Shown: in pieces, positions 9,783-17,896 of the stretch | How positions within the stretch are numbered: the stretch's first letter is position 1 | How the letters are laid out: each line of letters opens with the position of its first letter | NCBI RefSeq assembly: GCF_012927275.1 | Contig: NZ_JABBGG010000015.1 | Span: 1 to 64,000, forward strand | Direction: 5' to 3' | DNA length: 64,000 nt | DNA from: Massilia polaris | GTDB lineage: Bacteria; Pseudomonadota; Gammaproteobacteria; Burkholderiales; Burkholderiaceae_D | The notes under the pieces: generated by a model | What the model saw: the letters and a program-made list of their open reading frames with translations, nothing else | What the model was told of the DNA's origin: nothing | Database searches by the model: none | Translations under genes and position numbers: made by a program

Positions 9783-12635
9783 TCAGAACCTGTACCTCAC
9801 CCCCGCCGTAAAGAACCTTCCAATCGCTCCCTGCGTATCGAGCGGGTTATACGCCTGCGCGCCATACGTCAGCGGATCGAGCGGCGCAATCTGGTCGAAC
9901 ACATTCTGCACCGACCCGAACACCTCCAGCTTTGGCCTCGGCATCCAGCGCAGGGTCAGGTCCACCGTGGTGAACGACGGCAGCTCGCACCCGGTCGGCG
10001 CATCGTCTGCATTCGCGAAATGGCTCGCGCATCCTTCGGGATCGTCCTTGAAGAAGGTGTTTTCCAGGTTGCCGCGAAAGTTGAGGTTGGCCGACACCTT
10101 CCACACATCCTTCTCCCACGACAGCCGGAAATTGACCCGGTCGTCCGGCGTGCCGATGCAGTTGGTGACGTCGCAGTTGCCGTGGGTGCCGGCAAAGTCG
10201 CGCGAGCTTCCGTCCTGCTCGGTGCGCAGCCACTTGGTCAGGTGGGTCCATTTCGTATCGAGCACAAAGCCGCTGACCTTGCCAATCGAGAAGCCCTGGC
10301 GGAACTCGACATCGATGCCGCGCACTTCACTGCTGGCCGAATTCACGTAGCTCGCAAGCACCGCCGTAATCTGCCCCGGGTCGCCCGGAATGCCGGCCGC
10401 CGCCGTGCTGGGGTCGCGCGCAACCCGGCCGGCCAGGATCGCCGCGTCGATTTGCTCCTGGTTGATCTCGTTCTTGCGCTTGATTTCCCACACGTCGATG
10501 GCGATATTGGTGCGCGGGTACGGATCCCAGATGACGCCGAGGTTGACGGTGCGCGCCTTCTCCGGACTCAATGCCGGATTGGGCGAGGTGATGACCGCCA
10601 CGCTGGCCGGATCGCAGGCGGATGCGACGCCAAGGTTGCAGCGCAGCGGATCGGATGCCGTCGAGAACGCGGCGAGCCCGCCGACGCCGTTCTCCGCCGT
10701 GCTCGGCGCGCGGAAGCCGCGTGCATAGGTGCCGCGCGCGGCGAACGATTTGACGGGCGACCACTTGAAGCCGAACTTCGGCGTGTACGAATCGCCGGCA
10801 TCGCTGTAATGGTCGCCGCGCAGGGCGGCGGACAGTTCCAGCGTCCGGCGCACCGGCGCCAGTACCTCGCCATACAGCGCGGCGACGTTGCGGGCGCCGT
10901 CATAGGCCGAGTAGCCAAGGCCGATGATGTTGCCGCGCCCGGTGCCGGTGGTCGGCGCCAGCGTCGCTTCTTCGCGCCGGAACTCGCCGCCTACCGCCAC
11001 GCCGAGCGCGCCGCCAGCCAGTTTGCCGAATTCGCGGCTGCCCTTGATGTCGATCTGCGCGATGCGGGTTTTAGCGTCGTTCGAGATCGCCGGCGCCAGC
11101 GCCGCGTACAGCGCGGGCGAATTCAGGCCGGCGCTTTCGGCGATGCGCCAGAAGGTGCCCGGCGGCAGTGCAGCATAGCCAGGGTTGCCGGCCGCCGCCG
11201 CAACGTTAGCCGCACTTGGGTTCAGCAGAGCAAACGCGACGTCGCGCTGGAGGAAACCGCTGCGCTCAATGCTGACTTCGTTTTGCGAGAACAGCAGGCC
11301 GGTGTCGATTTCCCATCCCGCCACCTCGCCCTTGGCGCCCGCGACAAGGCGGATGAAATCCGACTCGATGCTGCTGACGCGGGGGCCGACATCGGCCGCG
11401 AGGTAGCGCAGCCGCGCCGTGCTGCCGAAGTAGGGATTGTCCGGATGGGTCGGGCCGAGCGCAATCGCGGCATTGCTGACCGGGCCTCCCGGATAGCCGA
11501 CCGAGCCGTGGATGCCGGAAGGCGTGGTAAACGATTCGGATTCGCTGCGATACAAGTTGAGTTCGCCGTAGGCTTGCCAGGCCGGATTGATCTGCAAGGC
11601 GCCGCGCGTGAAGAAGTTGATGCGTTCCTGGCCGGGCTGGACCTGGTTGTACACCAGCGTCGAATCGATCAGGCAGCCGCCCAGCGGGTCGCCCTGCGGG
11701 TGGCTGGTGAAGTTGGAGCAGGCCGCGCCAGGGAACAAGCGGGTAAAGCCGTCGCCGGCCGGGTTGCCGCGGCTGACATAGTCGAGCGTGTCGGGGTTGC
11801 GCACGTTGCCGACGATCGAACTGCCGGCCAGGTTGTTGTCGACGATGGCGCCGGTGCCGCCCAGCGCCTGCTGCGCGCTGTAGCCCCAGTTGCGCAGGTC
11901 GATGCGGCCGATGTGGCCGCGGTCGGCCCGGTCGCGCAGCCAGATCTCGTCGCGGCGGCCATACTCCAGGCTCACCAGCACGTTGTAGCGGTCGTTGTCG
12001 ATGTCGCCGAAGCCGTGGGTGACGGCGACCACGCTGTCGTTGCCGTCGCGCTCCCTGGACTGGCCGTGGCTGGCGCGCACCGACGTGCCAACGAAGTCGC
12101 GCCGCAGGATCACGTTGACCACGCCGGCGATCGCATCCGAGCCATACAGCGACGAGGCGCCGGTCTTCAGCACCTCGACCCGCTCGATGGCTTCCGACGG
12201 AATGATGTTCAGGTCGGCGAACATCTTCTGGCCGTCGTCGGCGAGGCCGTAGGGCGCCACGCGGCGGCCGTTGATCAGCACCAGCGTCGAGGCGGCGCCG
12301 AGTCCGCGCAGCGAGATGCCGGAGGCGCCGGCCGCGAAGCCATTGCCGAAACTCATGGGAACCGATCCCTGGTTGTCGACCGCCAGCGTCTGCAGCAGTT
12401 CAGCGACGGTGGTTTTGCCCGAGCGCTCGATATCGGCACGGTTCAGGGTCAGCACCGAGGACGACGTTTCAGCCTCGGCACGCCGGATCAGGGTGCCGGT
12501 CACTTCGACCCGGGCGATCGGGCCGGCGGGGTGTGCCTCTTGCGCGTGTAGCGGCAAGGCCAGCGTGGCAAGGCCGAGCGCGCCACCGCCGGCAAACAGG
12601 GGGCGGAGGAGGCGGGTCAGAACAGTTTCTTTCAT
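9783..12635 (-). CDS. TonB-dependent outer-membrane receptor
   Basis: A 950-residue receptor. A signal peptide ends near LPLHAQ (about residue 32), then comes a plug domain with the LVLINGRRVAPYG and SLYGSDAIAGVVNVILRR blocks, and then a long beta-barrel ending in the aromatic GVRYRF. Such proteins import large or scarce substrates across the outer membrane using TonB-ExbB-ExbD energy. The substrate is unknown; the large size and the plug sequence fit the expanded receptor sets of Massilia-like and Caulobacter-like bacteria rather than a classic siderophore receptor. GGAGCT precedes the ATG at 12635 at good spacing. It sits between tldD and aroG, where an insertion is unusual. Confidence 0.93.
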   Translation of the reverse strand: MKETVLTRLLRPLFAGGGALGLATLALPLHAQEAHPAGPIARVEVTGTLIRRAEAETSSSVLTLNRADIERSGKTTVAELLQTLAVDNQGSVPMSFGNGFAAGASGISLRGLGAASTLVLINGRRVAPYGLADDGQKMFADLNIIPSEAIERVEVLKTGASSLYGSDAIAGVVNVILRRDFVGTSVRASHGQSRERDGNDSVVAVTHGFGDIDNDRYNVLVSLEYGRRDEIWLRDRADRGHIGRIDLRNWGYSAQQALGGTGAIVDNNLAGSSIVGNVRNPDTLDYVSRGNPAGDGFTRLFPGAACSNFTSHPQGDPLGGCLIDSTLVYNQVQPGQERINFFTRGALQINPAWQAYGELNLYRSESESFTTPSGIHGSVGYPGGPVSNAAIALGPTHPDNPYFGSTARLRYLAADVGPRVSSIESDFIRLVAGAKGEVAGWEIDTGLLFSQNEVSIERSGFLQRDVAFALLNPSAANVAAAAGNPGYAALPPGTFWRIAESAGLNSPALYAALAPAISNDAKTRIAQIDIKGSREFGKLAGGALGVAVGGEFRREEATLAPTTGTGRGNIIGLGYSAYDGARNVAALYGEVLAPVRRTLELSAALRGDHYSDAGDSYTPKFGFKWSPVKSFAARGTYARGFRAPSTAENGVGGLAAFSTASDPLRCNLGVASACDPASVAVITSPNPALSPEKARTVNLGVIWDPYPRTNIAIDVWEIKRKNEINQEQIDAAILAGRVARDPSTAAAGIPGDPGQITAVLASYVNSASSEVRGIDVEFRQGFSIGKVSGFVLDTKWTHLTKWLRTEQDGSSRDFAGTHGNCDVTNCIGTPDDRVNFRLSWEKDVWKVSANLNFRGNLENTFFKDDPEGCASHFANADDAPTGCELPSFTTVDLTLRWMPRPKLEVFGSVQNVFDQIAPLDPLTYGAQAYNPLDTQGAIGRFFTAGVRYRF

Positions 12636-12916: not shown

Positions 12917-12946
12917 TTGCCAACCCGCACACAATCGGTTTATAGT
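12917..12946 (+). promoter_or_regulatory. Sigma-70 promoter for the aroG leader transcript
   Basis: TTGCCA (12917-12922) and TATAGT (12941-12946) are separated by 18 bases. Transcription would start near 12953, just ahead of the leader peptide. No other promoter as good lies between here and aroG. Confidence 0.7.
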
Positions 12947-12970
12947 CGTTCCAACCCTTTGGGATTCGAC

Positions 12971-13039
12971 ATGCGCTACATTGCTTTCTTTACCGGCCAC
13001 TTTGACTTTAGCCATTCCAGCCTTCAGGCGGTGGAGTAG
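12971..13039 (+). CDS. Phe-rich leader peptide of aroG
   Basis: A 22-residue open frame, MRYIAFFTGHFDFSHSSLQAVE, lies between a promoter and an intrinsic terminator ahead of aroG. Four of 22 codons encode Phe (TTC TTT, then TTT and TTT) and one encodes Tyr; two Phe pairs lie within eight codons. That composition, and the phenylalanine-sensitive enzyme downstream, suggest a regulatory peptide where ribosome stalling at Phe codons under low Phe-tRNA favours read-through. The ribosome binding site is weak (GGGA about seven bases before the ATG). The frame is too short to prove by coding statistics. Confidence 0.65.
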   Translation: MRYIAFFTGHFDFSHSSLQAVE

Positions 13040-13081
13040 CGGTCGGTTCACGTAGCAACAACGAGATCCCCAGCAAATTCT

Positions 13082-13109
13082 AAAAACCGCCAGCGATGGC
13101 GGTTTTTTT
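13082..13109 (+). terminator. Attenuator terminator ahead of aroG
   Basis: A 10-bp stem (13083-13092 with 13097-13106) with a GCGA loop runs into seven Ts, 38 bases before the aroG start. The 5' arm ACCGCC (13086-13091) can instead pair with GGCGGT at 13027-13032 inside the last codons of the leader peptide. That gives a plausible antiterminator that would form when a ribosome stalls at the upstream Phe codons. Confidence 0.75.
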
Positions 13110-13146
13110 ATTCCATCATGCATTCGAACTGACCACGGAGAACACC

Positions 13147-14208
13147 ATGCCACGTACCGACGACTTGCGCATCCGCGAAATGAAGGAACTCGTCCCGCCT
13201 GCGCACCTGATCCGCGAGTTCCCGTGCAGCGGGATCGCCGAGCAGACCGCAGCCAGCGCGCGCGTCGCCTTGCACCGCATCCTGCACGGACAGGACGACC
13301 GCCTGATGGTGGTGATCGGGCCATGCTCGATCCACGACACCAAGGCGGCGATGGAATATGCGCGCCGCCTCGCAGGGGAGCGCGACCGCCTCAAGGGCGA
13401 GCTGGAAATCGTGATGCGCGTGTATTTCGAGAAGCCACGCACCACGGTTGGCTGGAAGGGCCTGATCAACGACCCGTACATGGACAACAGCTTCCGCATC
13501 AACGACGGCCTGCGCATGGCGCGCGAACTGCTGCGCGACATCAACGAACTCGGCCTGCCGGCCGGCACCGAATTCCTCGACGTGATCAGTCCGCAGTACA
13601 TCGCCGACCTGATCAGCTGGGGCGCGATCGGCGCACGTACCACCGAGTCGCAGGTGCACCGCGAGCTGGCGTCGGGCTTGTCGTGCCCGGTGGGATTCAA
13701 GAACGGTACCGATGGGAATATCAAGATTGCCGTCGAGGCGATCAAGGCGGCGTCGCAGCCGCATCATTTCCTGTCGGTGACCAAGGGCGGGCACTCGGCG
13801 ATCGTGTCGACCAACGGCAATGAGGACTGCCACATCATCCTGCGCGGCGGCAAAACGCCGAACTACGATGCGGCCAGCGTGGAACAGGCGTGCCAGCAGA
13901 TCGCCGCGCAGGGACTGGCCTCGCGATTGATGATCGACGCGTCGCATGCGAACAGCTCGAAAAAGCCGGAGAACCAGGTGCCGGTGTGCGAGTCGATTGC
14001 GGAGCAGATCGCTGGTGGCGATGACCGCATTGTTGGCGTGATGGTGGAGTCGCACCTTGTGGCGGGACGCCAGGATTTGATTCCGGGTAAGGAGCTGGTG
14101 TATGGGCAGTCGGTGACCGATGGCTGCATCGATTGGGAAAACAGTTTGAAAGTGCTGGACGGCCTGGCGCAGGCTGTCCGCCGGCGTCGCATCCGCCAGG
14201 ACGGCTAA
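13147..14208 (+). CDS. aroG: 3-deoxy-7-phosphoheptulonate synthase (type I DAHP synthase)
   Basis: This 353-residue enzyme condenses phosphoenolpyruvate and erythrose 4-phosphate, the first step of the shikimate pathway. The class I AroAI motifs are present: VIGPCSIHDTKAAMEYA, KPRTTVGWKGLINDPYMD, and the metal/substrate region ending DASHANSSKKPENQ. The length matches E. coli AroG/AroF/AroH (about 350). The Phe-rich leader upstream suggests the phenylalanine-responsive isozyme, but the inhibitor-binding specificity was not verified. The ATG at 13147 is chosen because the protein then begins MPRTDDLRI, as in homologues; upstream codons run into the attenuator hairpin. Confidence 0.96.
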   Translation: MPRTDDLRIREMKELVPPAHLIREFPCSGIAEQTAASARVALHRILHGQDDRLMVVIGPCSIHDTKAAMEYARRLAGERDRLKGELEIVMRVYFEKPRTTVGWKGLINDPYMDNSFRINDGLRMARELLRDINELGLPAGTEFLDVISPQYIADLISWGAIGARTTESQVHRELASGLSCPVGFKNGTDGNIKIAVEAIKAASQPHHFLSVTKGGHSAIVSTNGNEDCHIILRGGKTPNYDAASVEQACQQIAAQGLASRLMIDASHANSSKKPENQVPVCESIAEQIAGGDDRIVGVMVESHLVAGRQDLIPGKELVYGQSVTDGCIDWENSLKVLDGLAQAVRRRRIRQDG

Positions 14209-14357: not shown

Positions 14358-17252
14358 TTACATCTTCACGCGCAGGCCGAGGTAGTAGCGGCGGCCGATC
14401 GGGTCGTAGGTGCCCGCGTCGGTTTCCGCACCGGTGGTGTTGCCCGGCAGGCCGCTGATGATAGGCGGCGCCTTGGTGTTGAACGCGTTGTCCACGCCGA
14501 CGTACAGGTCAACTTCCTTGCGCATTGCGTAGGTCAGCTGGAAATCGTTGTAGACCTTCTCCTTTACCTTGACCGAACCTGGCGCCAGGTCGAAGTCGCC
14601 CAGGAACACGTTGTCCAGCGCCGACTTGCCGATGTACGTGGTGCTCGAGGTCAGGTTGAAAGCGCCCCACTTGTAGCCCAGCGACAGCGAAGCCTTGTCC
14701 TTGGCTGCGCCGATTTCGCCTTCCCATGGATCGCGCTCAGCGCCTGGCAATGGAATGTCGTAGCCATCCAGCAGGTGGGTGTAAGCCAGGCGGGCGTTCA
14801 GGCGGCCTGGGCCAACCTTGTCTGCCCATGCCACGGTCACGTCCACGCCTTTGGTACCCAGGCCGCCGCTGTTCGAGACGGCGGAGTCGATGAACTCGAG
14901 CGAACCTGCGCTGTTGGCGCCCGCTGCGGCAGGACGACGGGTGATGAAGTTGCAGAACGAGGTGTTGCCACCGCCGTAGCAGCTGTCCAGCGCGTACTGG
15001 CGCGGGGTGCTGACGATGGCGTCTTCGATGTCGATCTTGAAGTAGTCAGCCGTGAAGGTGAACTTGCTCAGCGACGGGATCGAACGTGGGGTCACGACGA
15101 TACCGACGGTGGTCGAGCGGCCTTCTTCTTCGCCCAGGCCAGGGTTGCCGCGGTTGAAGCCGCTGACGCCCTGCAGGTCGGACTGGTTCAGGCTGAACGC
15201 CCCGTTGGCGGCGATGTTGGCGTTGACGCCTGGCGCAGCGCGGCATGCATCGTCACGTGCGCCAGCGGAGGTCGCGGTCACGCCTTCGCATGGATCCTTC
15301 AGGCCCGAAGGGAAGTCCTGCGATGGTGGCGAGAACAGTTCGTTGATGTTCGGAGCGCGGGTCGACAGTGCGCGGGTTGCGCGCAGCTTGATGTCCTGCA
15401 CTGGCGACCATTCGAAGCCGCCATTCCAGCTGGTGGTGTTGCCGACGGTCGAGTAGTCGCCGACGCGGACCGCGCCGAGGAAGCTCAGGCTCTTCGCGAA
15501 TGCCTTGTCCTTCAGGATAGGAATGCGGGTTTCCAGGAAGGCTTCCTTGACTTCGAATTCGCCTGCCGTCGGTGGGGTGGCGTTACCCGCGTTCAGGCCA
15601 GCCTGGGTCAGTGCGTCAGGCGTGCTGCTCGAGAATTCCTTGCGCCACTCGTAGCCTGCCGCGATACCCAGCGCGCCTGCTGGCAGCTGGAATGGTTCGC
15701 CGCTGATCGAGCCGCCGATCAGTTTCTGGGTGGTGACGGTTTCCAGCGAGCCTGGTGCGTTGACGTACTTGAACGCAGCCGGCGAGATCGCGTTGAAGCC
15801 GAACACGTTGATCGGTACGCAGCCTTGCGCGCGCGCGGTCGCATCGGCGCACATCGGGGTGCCGTCGGCGCCTGGCACTGCTTGCAGTGCGTTGCGGAAG
15901 TTCAGGACGTTGACCTGGCCGCCCGAAGCCTGGGCTTCCTTGGTCGAACCGTACACGCCATACACTTCATAGTTCCAGTCCTTGATCGTGCCTTTCAGGC
16001 CGGTTGCAAGACGGAAGGTGTCGCGCTCGGCGGTGCTGCCGCGGTTGCCCACCTCCGCCATGCGGCGCGTGAAGAAGTAGTCGCGCAGGCCGTCGCCGTC
16101 GGTGTCGCTGATGCGGTCGTACAGGTACTGAGGAACCAGCGGGTTGCGTACTGCCGCGCCGTTGACGAACGTTTCGGCAGGCACCTGGCCGTTGGCGTAG
16201 ATGTCGTCCGAACCGAGCGCGAACGGCTCGAGCTTGGTGGTGACGCTGGTCGAGGCGTAGTTACCTTCGAAGAAGGCGCTGTGGTTTTCGTTCAGCGCCA
16301 GGTTGCCGCTGGTGGCGAAGTTGTAGCGCTCGGTCGGCACGGCGATCGTGCGGAACTCGGAACGGTTGTAGCCGGTCGGAGCCTGGGTGGCGCTGCCGTT
16401 GGTCGATACCGGGATCGGGTTGCCGGCGGCGTCATAGGTGTAGCTGCCGGTGTCGTGGTAGAAGTAACCCTGCGGCGCGTAGCCGGACAGGTAGGGACGG
16501 CGCGGCTTGAACAGGTCGGCGGCGTTGCCGGTCAGGGCGCCTTCCGAGTACTGGTCGACGGCCGAGATGTCACGGTCTTTCGAGAATACCGCGCCCTGGC
16601 GCGAGTAACCGAAGTGACCCATGATGTTGCTGGCGCCGTCAGCACTGGTGGTGCCGAAGGTCAGGGACAGCTTGCGCTTGGCGTCGTCGCCTTGCTCGCT
16701 GCCGCCAACCGATGCATCGGCCAGCACGCCGTTGAAGTTCTTCTTCAGGATGATGTTGACCACGCCTGCAACCGCGTCGGAACCGTAGGTTGCCGATGCG
16801 CCGCCGGTCAGCAGCTCGACGCGCTCGATGAAGTCGGTAGGGATGGTGTTCAGGTCGACTGCTGCCGAGCCTGGCACGCCGGATACGACGCGGCGGCCGT
16901 TGATCAGCACCAGGGTGCGGTCGACGCCGAGGTTACGCAGGTCGACGGTGGCCACGCCCGCGCTGGCAGTCGAGAAGTTCGAGTTGGTGCGGCTGATCGA
17001 CGGGGTACCCATGGTTGGGTTCTCGAGCAGCAGTTCCTGCAGGTTGGTCGCGCCGGACTGGGCGATATCCGCCGAGCTCAGCACCTGCAGCGGGGATGGC
17101 GATTCCGCGTTTGGCGAGGAAATGCGCGAGCCGGTCACGGTGACCTTCTGGATCTCCGGCGTGGCAGTCTGTGCGAACGCGGCCGACATGCCGAGGGTGA
17201 CGCCACCCAGGCAAATCAGGCGGATCGAGCGGGCTAAGGCTTTTTCTAACAT
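14358..17252 (-). CDS. TonB-dependent outer-membrane receptor
   Basis: A 964-residue receptor. Its signal peptide ends near SAAFAQ, followed by VTVTGSRISSPNAESPSPLQ, a plug with TLVLINGRRVV and SATYGSDAVAGVVNIILKK, and a barrel ending in YYLGLRVKM. The ATG at 17252 is preferred to one 27 bases upstream because GGGAG lies nine bases before it. The gene is divergent from a peptide-type ABC transporter. That pairing suggests, but does not show, that the two act on the same substrate, with the receptor crossing the outer membrane and the ABC genes the inner one. Confidence 0.93.
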   Translation of the reverse strand: MLEKALARSIRLICLGGVTLGMSAAFAQTATPEIQKVTVTGSRISSPNAESPSPLQVLSSADIAQSGATNLQELLLENPTMGTPSISRTNSNFSTASAGVATVDLRNLGVDRTLVLINGRRVVSGVPGSAAVDLNTIPTDFIERVELLTGGASATYGSDAVAGVVNIILKKNFNGVLADASVGGSEQGDDAKRKLSLTFGTTSADGASNIMGHFGYSRQGAVFSKDRDISAVDQYSEGALTGNAADLFKPRRPYLSGYAPQGYFYHDTGSYTYDAAGNPIPVSTNGSATQAPTGYNRSEFRTIAVPTERYNFATSGNLALNENHSAFFEGNYASTSVTTKLEPFALGSDDIYANGQVPAETFVNGAAVRNPLVPQYLYDRISDTDGDGLRDYFFTRRMAEVGNRGSTAERDTFRLATGLKGTIKDWNYEVYGVYGSTKEAQASGGQVNVLNFRNALQAVPGADGTPMCADATARAQGCVPINVFGFNAISPAAFKYVNAPGSLETVTTQKLIGGSISGEPFQLPAGALGIAAGYEWRKEFSSSTPDALTQAGLNAGNATPPTAGEFEVKEAFLETRIPILKDKAFAKSLSFLGAVRVGDYSTVGNTTSWNGGFEWSPVQDIKLRATRALSTRAPNINELFSPPSQDFPSGLKDPCEGVTATSAGARDDACRAAPGVNANIAANGAFSLNQSDLQGVSGFNRGNPGLGEEEGRSTTVGIVVTPRSIPSLSKFTFTADYFKIDIEDAIVSTPRQYALDSCYGGGNTSFCNFITRRPAAAGANSAGSLEFIDSAVSNSGGLGTKGVDVTVAWADKVGPGRLNARLAYTHLLDGYDIPLPGAERDPWEGEIGAAKDKASLSLGYKWGAFNLTSSTTYIGKSALDNVFLGDFDLAPGSVKVKEKVYNDFQLTYAMRKEVDLYVGVDNAFNTKAPPIISGLPGNTTGAETDAGTYDPIGRRYYLGLRVKM

Positions 17253-17896
17253 GGTAGTGTTACTCCCTTGTGAATTCATTAGTCGTCCTGTTTCTTCGTG
17301 GGCCGCATTGCGTGTTTACACGTTGCTCCGATGAAAAAATGGTTCTGTATACGAACGGCCTAATGAAATCACTGTGTATGGGCAGTGTCAATGTAGAAAG
17401 TTTGTCGTTTCTTTGTAAATTACAACGTTTTCACAGTTTGTCCGGTTGGCAAAATTAAATTTTGCTGCGTCGCAGCATGCCGATGTGACGTAACTTGCAA
17501 TAACTTGCACACAAAATTTATACATCGTGCGTTCAAAATGCTGTCAAGACTGTTACTTTTGTTGCGTTGCAATATGCGCAGCTAAAGTTGCCTATACATA
17601 CGCAACTACAGGGATGGAAGTGTGGCTTTTTTGAGCTAAATACCATCGGAACCCAATTGCGTGCTGCATAGCAATGGTGAGCGGATGAGCTGGGGAAGTT
17701 GCTGGTGTAAGGTCAATACGGATGAGTGTGGCGCACCAATTGATGACCTGGACGGCCCGGCGCGGCGCCGGAATGGCGGCCCAATGGCGGGTTGCCGATT
17801 TTTTGGCAACGCCGCCGGCTTTTTGCGTTATCGTTACGGCTTTTTCTGCGGTGCAAGTCCACGCACCGCCGTCACCGCGAATCCGGCAGATCAATC
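17253..17896. other. Long A+T-richer divergent regulatory region
   Basis: This 644-base gap separates the receptor start from the ABC transporter start. Bases 17300-17640 are clearly richer in A+T than their surroundings. They contain the palindrome GCTGCGTCGCAGC at 17465-17477 and a minus-strand TTGACA (17391-17386) that could be a -35 for the receptor, without a good -10. Bases 17660-17890 are GC-rich, with a small hairpin GTTGCC..GGCAAC at about 17800-17819 followed by CTTTTTG. No convincing gene was found. Confidence 0.4.

Follow-up and report, generated by a model that had tools for sequence, protein, structure and literature searches.

Leader peptides rich in Phe codons are known in E. 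coli upstream of pheA and pheS, where the pheL-pheA and pheM-pheST systems combine such a peptide with alternative hairpins and a terminator. The element analyzed here lies upstream of aroG in a 64,000-nt stretch of Massilia polaris DNA (the window). It has these parts in common with the two E. coli systems (Rfam family RF01859, Phe_leader), and a covariance model made from aroG leaders picks up Phe-rich leaders of pheS and pheA as well, but it differs from them in the gene under control, aroG. RF01859 itself scores 21.1 bits here, below its curated cutoff of 55. A scan of the window at Rfam gathering scores returned 0 matches, to the T-box or any other riboswitch included, and the families raised at a loose E-value were rejected, as none of them fits.

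Leaders have also been described at DAHP synthase genes. In C. glutamicum, Phe limitation acts on the DAHP synthase operon aroF through a Phe-Tyr-Phe leader, aroR (as relayed from Neshat et al. 2014 in the available part of PMC11802643). The position of that peptide before a DAHP synthase operon and the rise in transcription upon stalling under Phe limitation, as given there, recall what is proposed for the present locus, whereas the host is an actinobacterium; the likeness is drawn from the published description. In Acholeplasma, uORFC-13-1 is a predicted Phe-containing uORF that, together with a terminator, precedes aroF (DAHP synthase), according to the available part of PMC8632094. It belongs to another phylum, has a different RNA structure, and is known there from 24 representatives with at least one Phe codon. 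DAHP synthase genes of E. coli and other gammaproteobacteria are under TyrR/TrpR repression, as stated in the available text of PMC5343134 and PMC11802643. The same step is controlled in those bacteria and the pathway is likewise matched to the aromatic amino acids, but the regulators are DNA-binding repressors, and TrpR was not found in the window's own genome.

An earlier, sequence-only reading of the locus had called an attenuated DAHP synthase gene a distinct wiring. This holds insofar as the literature searched, some of it available in part, yielded no account of attenuation by a leader at aroG in Betaproteobacteria, Xanthomonas, or rhizobia, or of any proteobacterial aroG leader, a result that does not prove absence from print. 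The aroR-aroF system (PMC11802643) and the Acholeplasma uORF (PMC8632094), as far as these sources describe them, are precedents that narrow the claim. We consider it highly probable that the element is a ribosome-mediated transcription attenuator of aroG, with a response to Phe-tRNA supply that we infer by analogy. Such a mechanism is ordinary, as in trp, pheA, and pheST; the gene controlled is what is unusual.

Layout of the element and its genomic setting

On the plus strand, a sigma-70-like promoter, a 22-codon Phe leader, a terminator, and the aroG ribosome-binding site (GGAG, 13137-13140) follow one another between 12917 and the aroG start at 13147 (Table 1). This is the order that had been described from the letters alone, and its coordinates are borne out by the sequence and by a script-based check.

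Table 1. Features of the aroG leader region, in window positions
Feature	Position	Strand	Basis
Sigma-70-like promoter, TTGCCA-18-TATAGT	12917..12946	+	Sequence and motif count
Likely leader ribosome-binding site, GGGA	12961..12964	+	Sequence reading
Leader ORF, 22 codons plus TAG	12971..13039	+	Sequence and script; similar leader in each of 30 family loci
Region 1, ACCGGCC (codons 8-10, among the Phe codons)	12992..12998	+	Pairs with 13041-13047; fold and compensatory changes
Inner protector strand, AUUCCA	13014..13019	+	Pairs with 13032-13037; fold
Region 2: GGCGGU 13027-13032, GGAGU 13033-13037, GGUCGGU 13041-13047	13027..13047	+	Shared by protector and antiterminator as alternatives
Region 3: 13077-13081 and ACCGCC 13086-13091	13077..13091	+	Antiterminator pairing with region 2; fold
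Intrinsic terminator, 11-pair hairpin and seven U	13082..13109	+	Folding, family pairing
aroG, DAHP synthase, 353 aa	13147..14208	+	NCBIfam, PDB matches

The element occupies a 511-nt intergenic gap between a minus-strand ORF (9783-12635) and aroG. The terminator was considered as the 3' end of the upstream gene, a reading rejected because this long ORF is divergent. Both minus-strand ORFs that flank aroG, 9783-12635 and 14358-17279, resemble TonB-dependent receptors by eye.

One promoter-like site was found, against 0.1 expected from shuffles. TATAGT is present in 27 of the 30 family aroG loci, and in 26 a similarly spaced TA(T/C)NNT-like box accompanies TTGC(C/T). At the distal end of the element, the terminator arms (13082-13092 and 13097-13107) form their 11 pairs when the A-U part is counted, and the seven T occupy 13103-13109. 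A consensus terminator rule run on the window reported 0 terminators at this hairpin, although RNA folding forms it; the rule probably missed it because the stem runs into the T run, leaving too few T after the stem. Across the family, 97.3% of 297 cells in the terminator are paired and two pairs show a double change. Folding and family pairing thus place an intrinsic terminator between leader and structural gene.

The AroG protein scores 592 bits with NCBIfam (cutoff, 568), and its best PDB matches are DAHP synthases, the Phe-regulated one included, so that the downstream gene acts in the synthesis of the amino acid proposed to be sensed. Among the 80 named loci listed, the closest AroG proteins (87 to 89% identical) belong to Rugamonas, Janthinobacterium, Massilia, and relatives.

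Elsewhere in the same genome, a second DAHP synthase gene, 53% identical, lies on the minus strand of contig 25 (L002, 1501-2496), with no Phe-rich leader. The pheA gene (PF00800) begins 65 nt downstream of a serC-like gene, and a hisC-like gene comes next, these neighbors being named by eye. No Phe leader was seen before pheA or pheS in this genome, in which the two covariance models described below, R1 and R2, give one match each. From its sequence, Phe control of transcription in this organism seems to sit at the pathway entry. A table of putative attenuators for tyrA operons, in the available part of PMC1173090, lists one before a gyrA-serC-pheA cluster in Bordetella parapertussis, which leaves room for attenuation of pheA in some relatives; as it is confined to tyrA operons, the table says nothing on aroG. 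In addition, a hairpin resembling a terminator (GGGGCAGAGG...CCTGTGCCCCGTTTTT) lies immediately 5' of the own-genome pheS (L340, 1164-1195) and is not accompanied by a Phe leader.

Conservation of the leader in the family

Twenty-seven of 30 family loci were aligned, with the near-duplicates L013, L014, and L017 omitted, and covariance model R1 was built from the alignment. R1 matches 134 of 145 family genomes. The match lies 17 to 130 nt upstream of an aroG match in 131 of them (median, 35.5), and one further match precedes a partial aroG (G034), which places 132 of 134 directly before the gene; the remaining two (G071 and G137) lie within approximately 600 nt of contig position 1, with no listed aroG alongside. 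Among the 11 genomes without an R1 match, five carry leader and terminator on inspection (G036, G043, G050, G074, and G124), G035 has a terminator at a contig end, and G009 and G013 have neither leader nor terminator. G064 has only a weaker DAHP synthase match, and G007 and G044 have none. By R1 or inspection, the element therefore precedes aroG in 137 of 145 family genomes. R1 matches on contig 3 of G099 and contig 64 of G122 were rejected as terminators without an aromatic leader, and in a match on contig 55 of G122 the leader is present and the contig ends there.

The leader peptide, MRYIAFFTGHFDFSHSSLQAVE*, is read from ATG to TAG. Its four Phe codons are numbers 6 and 7 (12986-12991), 11 (13001-13003), and 13 (13007-13009). 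Taken alone, the Phe enrichment of this single leader is modest: at a frequency of 4%, four or more Phe among 21 codons have a probability of 0.009. In the 27 aligned family sequences, codons 11 and 13 always specify Phe (codon 11, TTT in 25 and TTC in 2; codon 13, TTT in 27). Codon 12 is Tyr (TAC or TAT) in 23 of them, and it is Asp (GAC, 13004-13006) in the window genome only. At least three Phe residues occur in 83 of 86 homologue leaders, a set preselected for leader and terminator (88 of 139 loci, two skipped); only L021 and L075, the latter counted twice, have two.

An alignment-free script was used to find aromatic-rich ORFs of 15 to 36 codons immediately 5' of a terminator, with dinucleotide shuffles as control. 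It was positive at 29 of 30 family aroG loci, compared to 0.1 of 30 in the shuffles; the sole miss was L021, whose leader has 2 Phe. Positives also came from 12 of 16 weak or model-negative family loci. Beyond the family its distribution is uneven: of 66 fetched loci belonging to the order's other families, 18 were positive (25 of 73 when seven genomes already collected are added). The script was also positive at 51 of 80 named loci and at 2 of 29 class loci, and shuffles gave 0 to 0.1 per set. The locus thus has a conserved short ORF rich in the presumed regulatory codons.

Wider homologues and the amino acids sensed

A second covariance model, R2, was built from 27 aroG leaders, all from outside the own family. 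In the own genome, its single match at an E-value of at most 0.001 is the window element (E, 2.4e-6). R2 matches 61 of 349 phylum genomes, some weak matches spanning the terminator part only. Thirty-seven of the 50 R2 loci that were read precede aroG (tblastn E < 1e-100). Three of the other 13 were checked, and these precede pheS (L320) or pheA (L323 and L326). The matched pheA leaders are Phe rich (e.g., FFFAFFFTFP), and L321, L322, and L327 carry the same kind of leader peptide. Other Burkholderiales, Xanthomonas relatives, and rhizobia have homologous aroG leaders; at the six named enterobacterial and vibrio-type aroG loci of Pantoea, Pectobacterium, Dickeya, Buttiauxella, Serratia, and Enterovibrio, the script found no leader. 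An aroG in a record titled as an Anaerolineae MAG (L288), possibly mis-binned, is preceded by an ORF with many Phe and Tyr codons (MSRYFSFFSWYGYF...), for which a terminator was not found.

The 42 unique own-family leaders contain 21.3% Phe, 8.7% Tyr (79 of 911 residues), and 0.9% Trp, compared to 3.6%, 2.9%, and 0.8%, respectively, in four own-genome proteins. The surplus of Tyr, which is present at least once in 40 of the 42, would fit the same attenuator acting as a broader aromatic sensor, in which Tyr codons, and elsewhere Trp codons, also stall the ribosome and aroG answers a shortage of any aromatic amino acid. All three aromatic residues are found in the hand-picked leaders of the Xanthomonas type (12 of 12) and from alphaproteobacteria (23 of 23), a count from which four leaders were left out, among them an alphaproteobacterial one without Trp (L285). 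Yet the window leader has a single Tyr, early in the peptide, and Asp at the codon where most relatives have Tyr; only 8 of the 42 family leaders contain Trp; and in C. glutamicum, according to the available part of PMC11802643, Tyr supply is without effect despite the Phe-Tyr-Phe leader. We regard the broader sensor as rather unlikely, and the signal in the own family is probably Phe, perhaps with some Tyr. The name phenylalanine attenuator, given to the element in the sequence-only reading, is supported by the conserved Phe codons and may be too narrow, since Tyr is enriched and related leaders carry Phe, Tyr, and Trp.

Codon content suggests that the aroG leaders of Xanthomonas relatives and rhizobia may sense all three aromatic amino acids. 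A reasonable possibility, advanced here tentatively, is that an old family of homologous attenuators gates entry into the aromatic pathway across Pseudomonadota, its leader peptide recording which aromatics are checked: Phe, Tyr, and Trp in Xanthomonas relatives and rhizobia, and chiefly Phe in the window's family, whose leaders mostly lack Trp. If true, the committed aromatic step in many soil, plant-associated, and symbiotic bacteria would be gated by translation of a leader peptide and not by TyrR/TrpR as in E. coli, and aroG regulation would be predictable from sequence in many genomes. The element would then represent an RNA family new to Rfam and a natural series, running from leaders with mainly Phe to those with Phe/Tyr/Trp, in which to study how many amino acids a single attenuator can read. 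An aroG attenuator could also aid the engineering of aromatic production in such hosts.

Alternative pairings and proposed mechanism

Upstream of the terminator, the window RNA folds as a protector that holds region 2. Double-sided changes amount to 15 cells over the structure, compared to 6.0 in shuffles, none of 500 of which reached 15, and at most 9 in slid structures. Pairs with a double change number 3 against 1.7 in shuffles (66 of 500 as high), and some slid structures exceed the protector with 4; pair types number 14 against 13.7 (298 of 500 as high). The compensatory changes sit in the outer protector helix, and the inner helix, with 88.4% of its cells paired, has no double changes. 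When compared by family, protector energies have mean z values from -2.0 to +1.0 and are unremarkable in several. A protector pairing that a stalled ribosome would break is thus seen in the own family only, with some covariation measures not above shuffles.

The GGCGGT at 13027-13032 and the ACCGCC at 13086-13091, proposed as pairing partners from the letters alone, lie exactly at these positions, and folding supports the pairing. With a ribosome placed on the last Phe codon, the RNA downstream of it folds with GGCGGU and GGAGU paired to 13077-13091, blocking the 5' arm of the terminator. This antiterminator is the best fold at every tested length from 13090 to 13102, beyond most of the core of the terminator 3' arm. 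Once the RNA extends beyond 13104 with the ribosome stalled, the terminator reaches -29.7 kcal/mol versus -26.8 kcal/mol for the antiterminator, a gap of up to 2.9 kcal/mol. Since a stalled ribosome does not keep the full-length fold from favoring the terminator, the antiterminator could prevail only through timing. With the ribosome placed at the stop codon and folding begun at its edge, the RNA forms the terminator together with one 3-pair hairpin (-16.1 kcal/mol).

GGCGG and CCGCC are invariant in 27 of 27 family sequences, and this invariant core gives no covariation signal for the antiterminator within the family. The short frame (137 of 145 genomes), its Phe codons 11 and 13 (27 of 27), and the alternative pairings, which the sequence-only reading proposed to compare across relatives, are all conserved there. 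The same fold, for the stretch that runs from a ribosome at the last Phe codon up to the terminator 5' arm, was computed for the 86 preselected homologues. The 5' arm was paired with region 2 in 82 of them (77 of 80 distinct sequences, 12 families), compared to 28% with shuffled upstream RNA. In folds that stop at this arm, a stalled ribosome would therefore favor an antiterminator that is exclusive with the terminator. Family f9 passes in 3 of 6 sequences, and in f19 and f31 the antiterminator energies are no better than those of shuffles. Measured from the first base of the nearest Phe codon before it, the best-scoring helix starts at 8 to 22 nt in 85 of 86 homologues and at 4 nt in one; in 25 of 86 this distance is below 12 nt, where the ribosome would cover the first bases of the helix. 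Two controls are weak tests: synonymous recoding gave p ≤ 0.05 in 3 of 86 single sequences, and swapping in terminators of other families lowered the score from 19 to 17.7.

Sequence, comparison, and folding together show the parts and alternative pairings of an attenuator. Translation of the leader, stalling, the Phe response, and the change in read-through would follow the established E. coli pheA/trp mechanism. Transcription would start a few bases past 12946, and a ribosome translating the leader would follow the RNA polymerase. With Phe-tRNA scarce, it would stall on the Phe codons (12986-13009), disturbing region 1 and the inner protector strand; region 2, freed in this way, would pair with the emerging terminator 5' arm, delaying or blocking the terminator, and aroG would be transcribed. 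With Phe-tRNA ample, the ribosome would reach the stop codon and cover region 2, or region 1 would hold region 2. The terminator could then form, and transcription would end before aroG.

Termination in the leader would also yield an RNA of approximately 150 nt, and action in trans has been reported for the Sinorhizobium trp leader peptide (in the available part of PMC7298713). It is nevertheless improbable that the leader works mainly in trans as a small RNA or peptide, with the terminator as its 3' end and attenuation secondary, given that the element directly precedes aroG in 132 of 134 R1-positive genomes and that the pairings with the terminator arm are conserved. A fixed terminator that merely lowers aroG expression, with the short frame untranslated, is hardly credible when the frame is kept while its Phe codons vary synonymously, three or more Phe occur in 83 of 86 leaders, and shuffles yield 0.1 of 30.

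Adjacent Phe, Tyr, and Trp codons (e.g., SYFWYFSY and FYFWYY) were observed in the aroG leaders of four named alphaproteobacteria (L255, L259, L260, and L267) and four members of the Xanthomonas group (L243, L245, L254, and L258). All eight have a similar terminator and antiterminator core.
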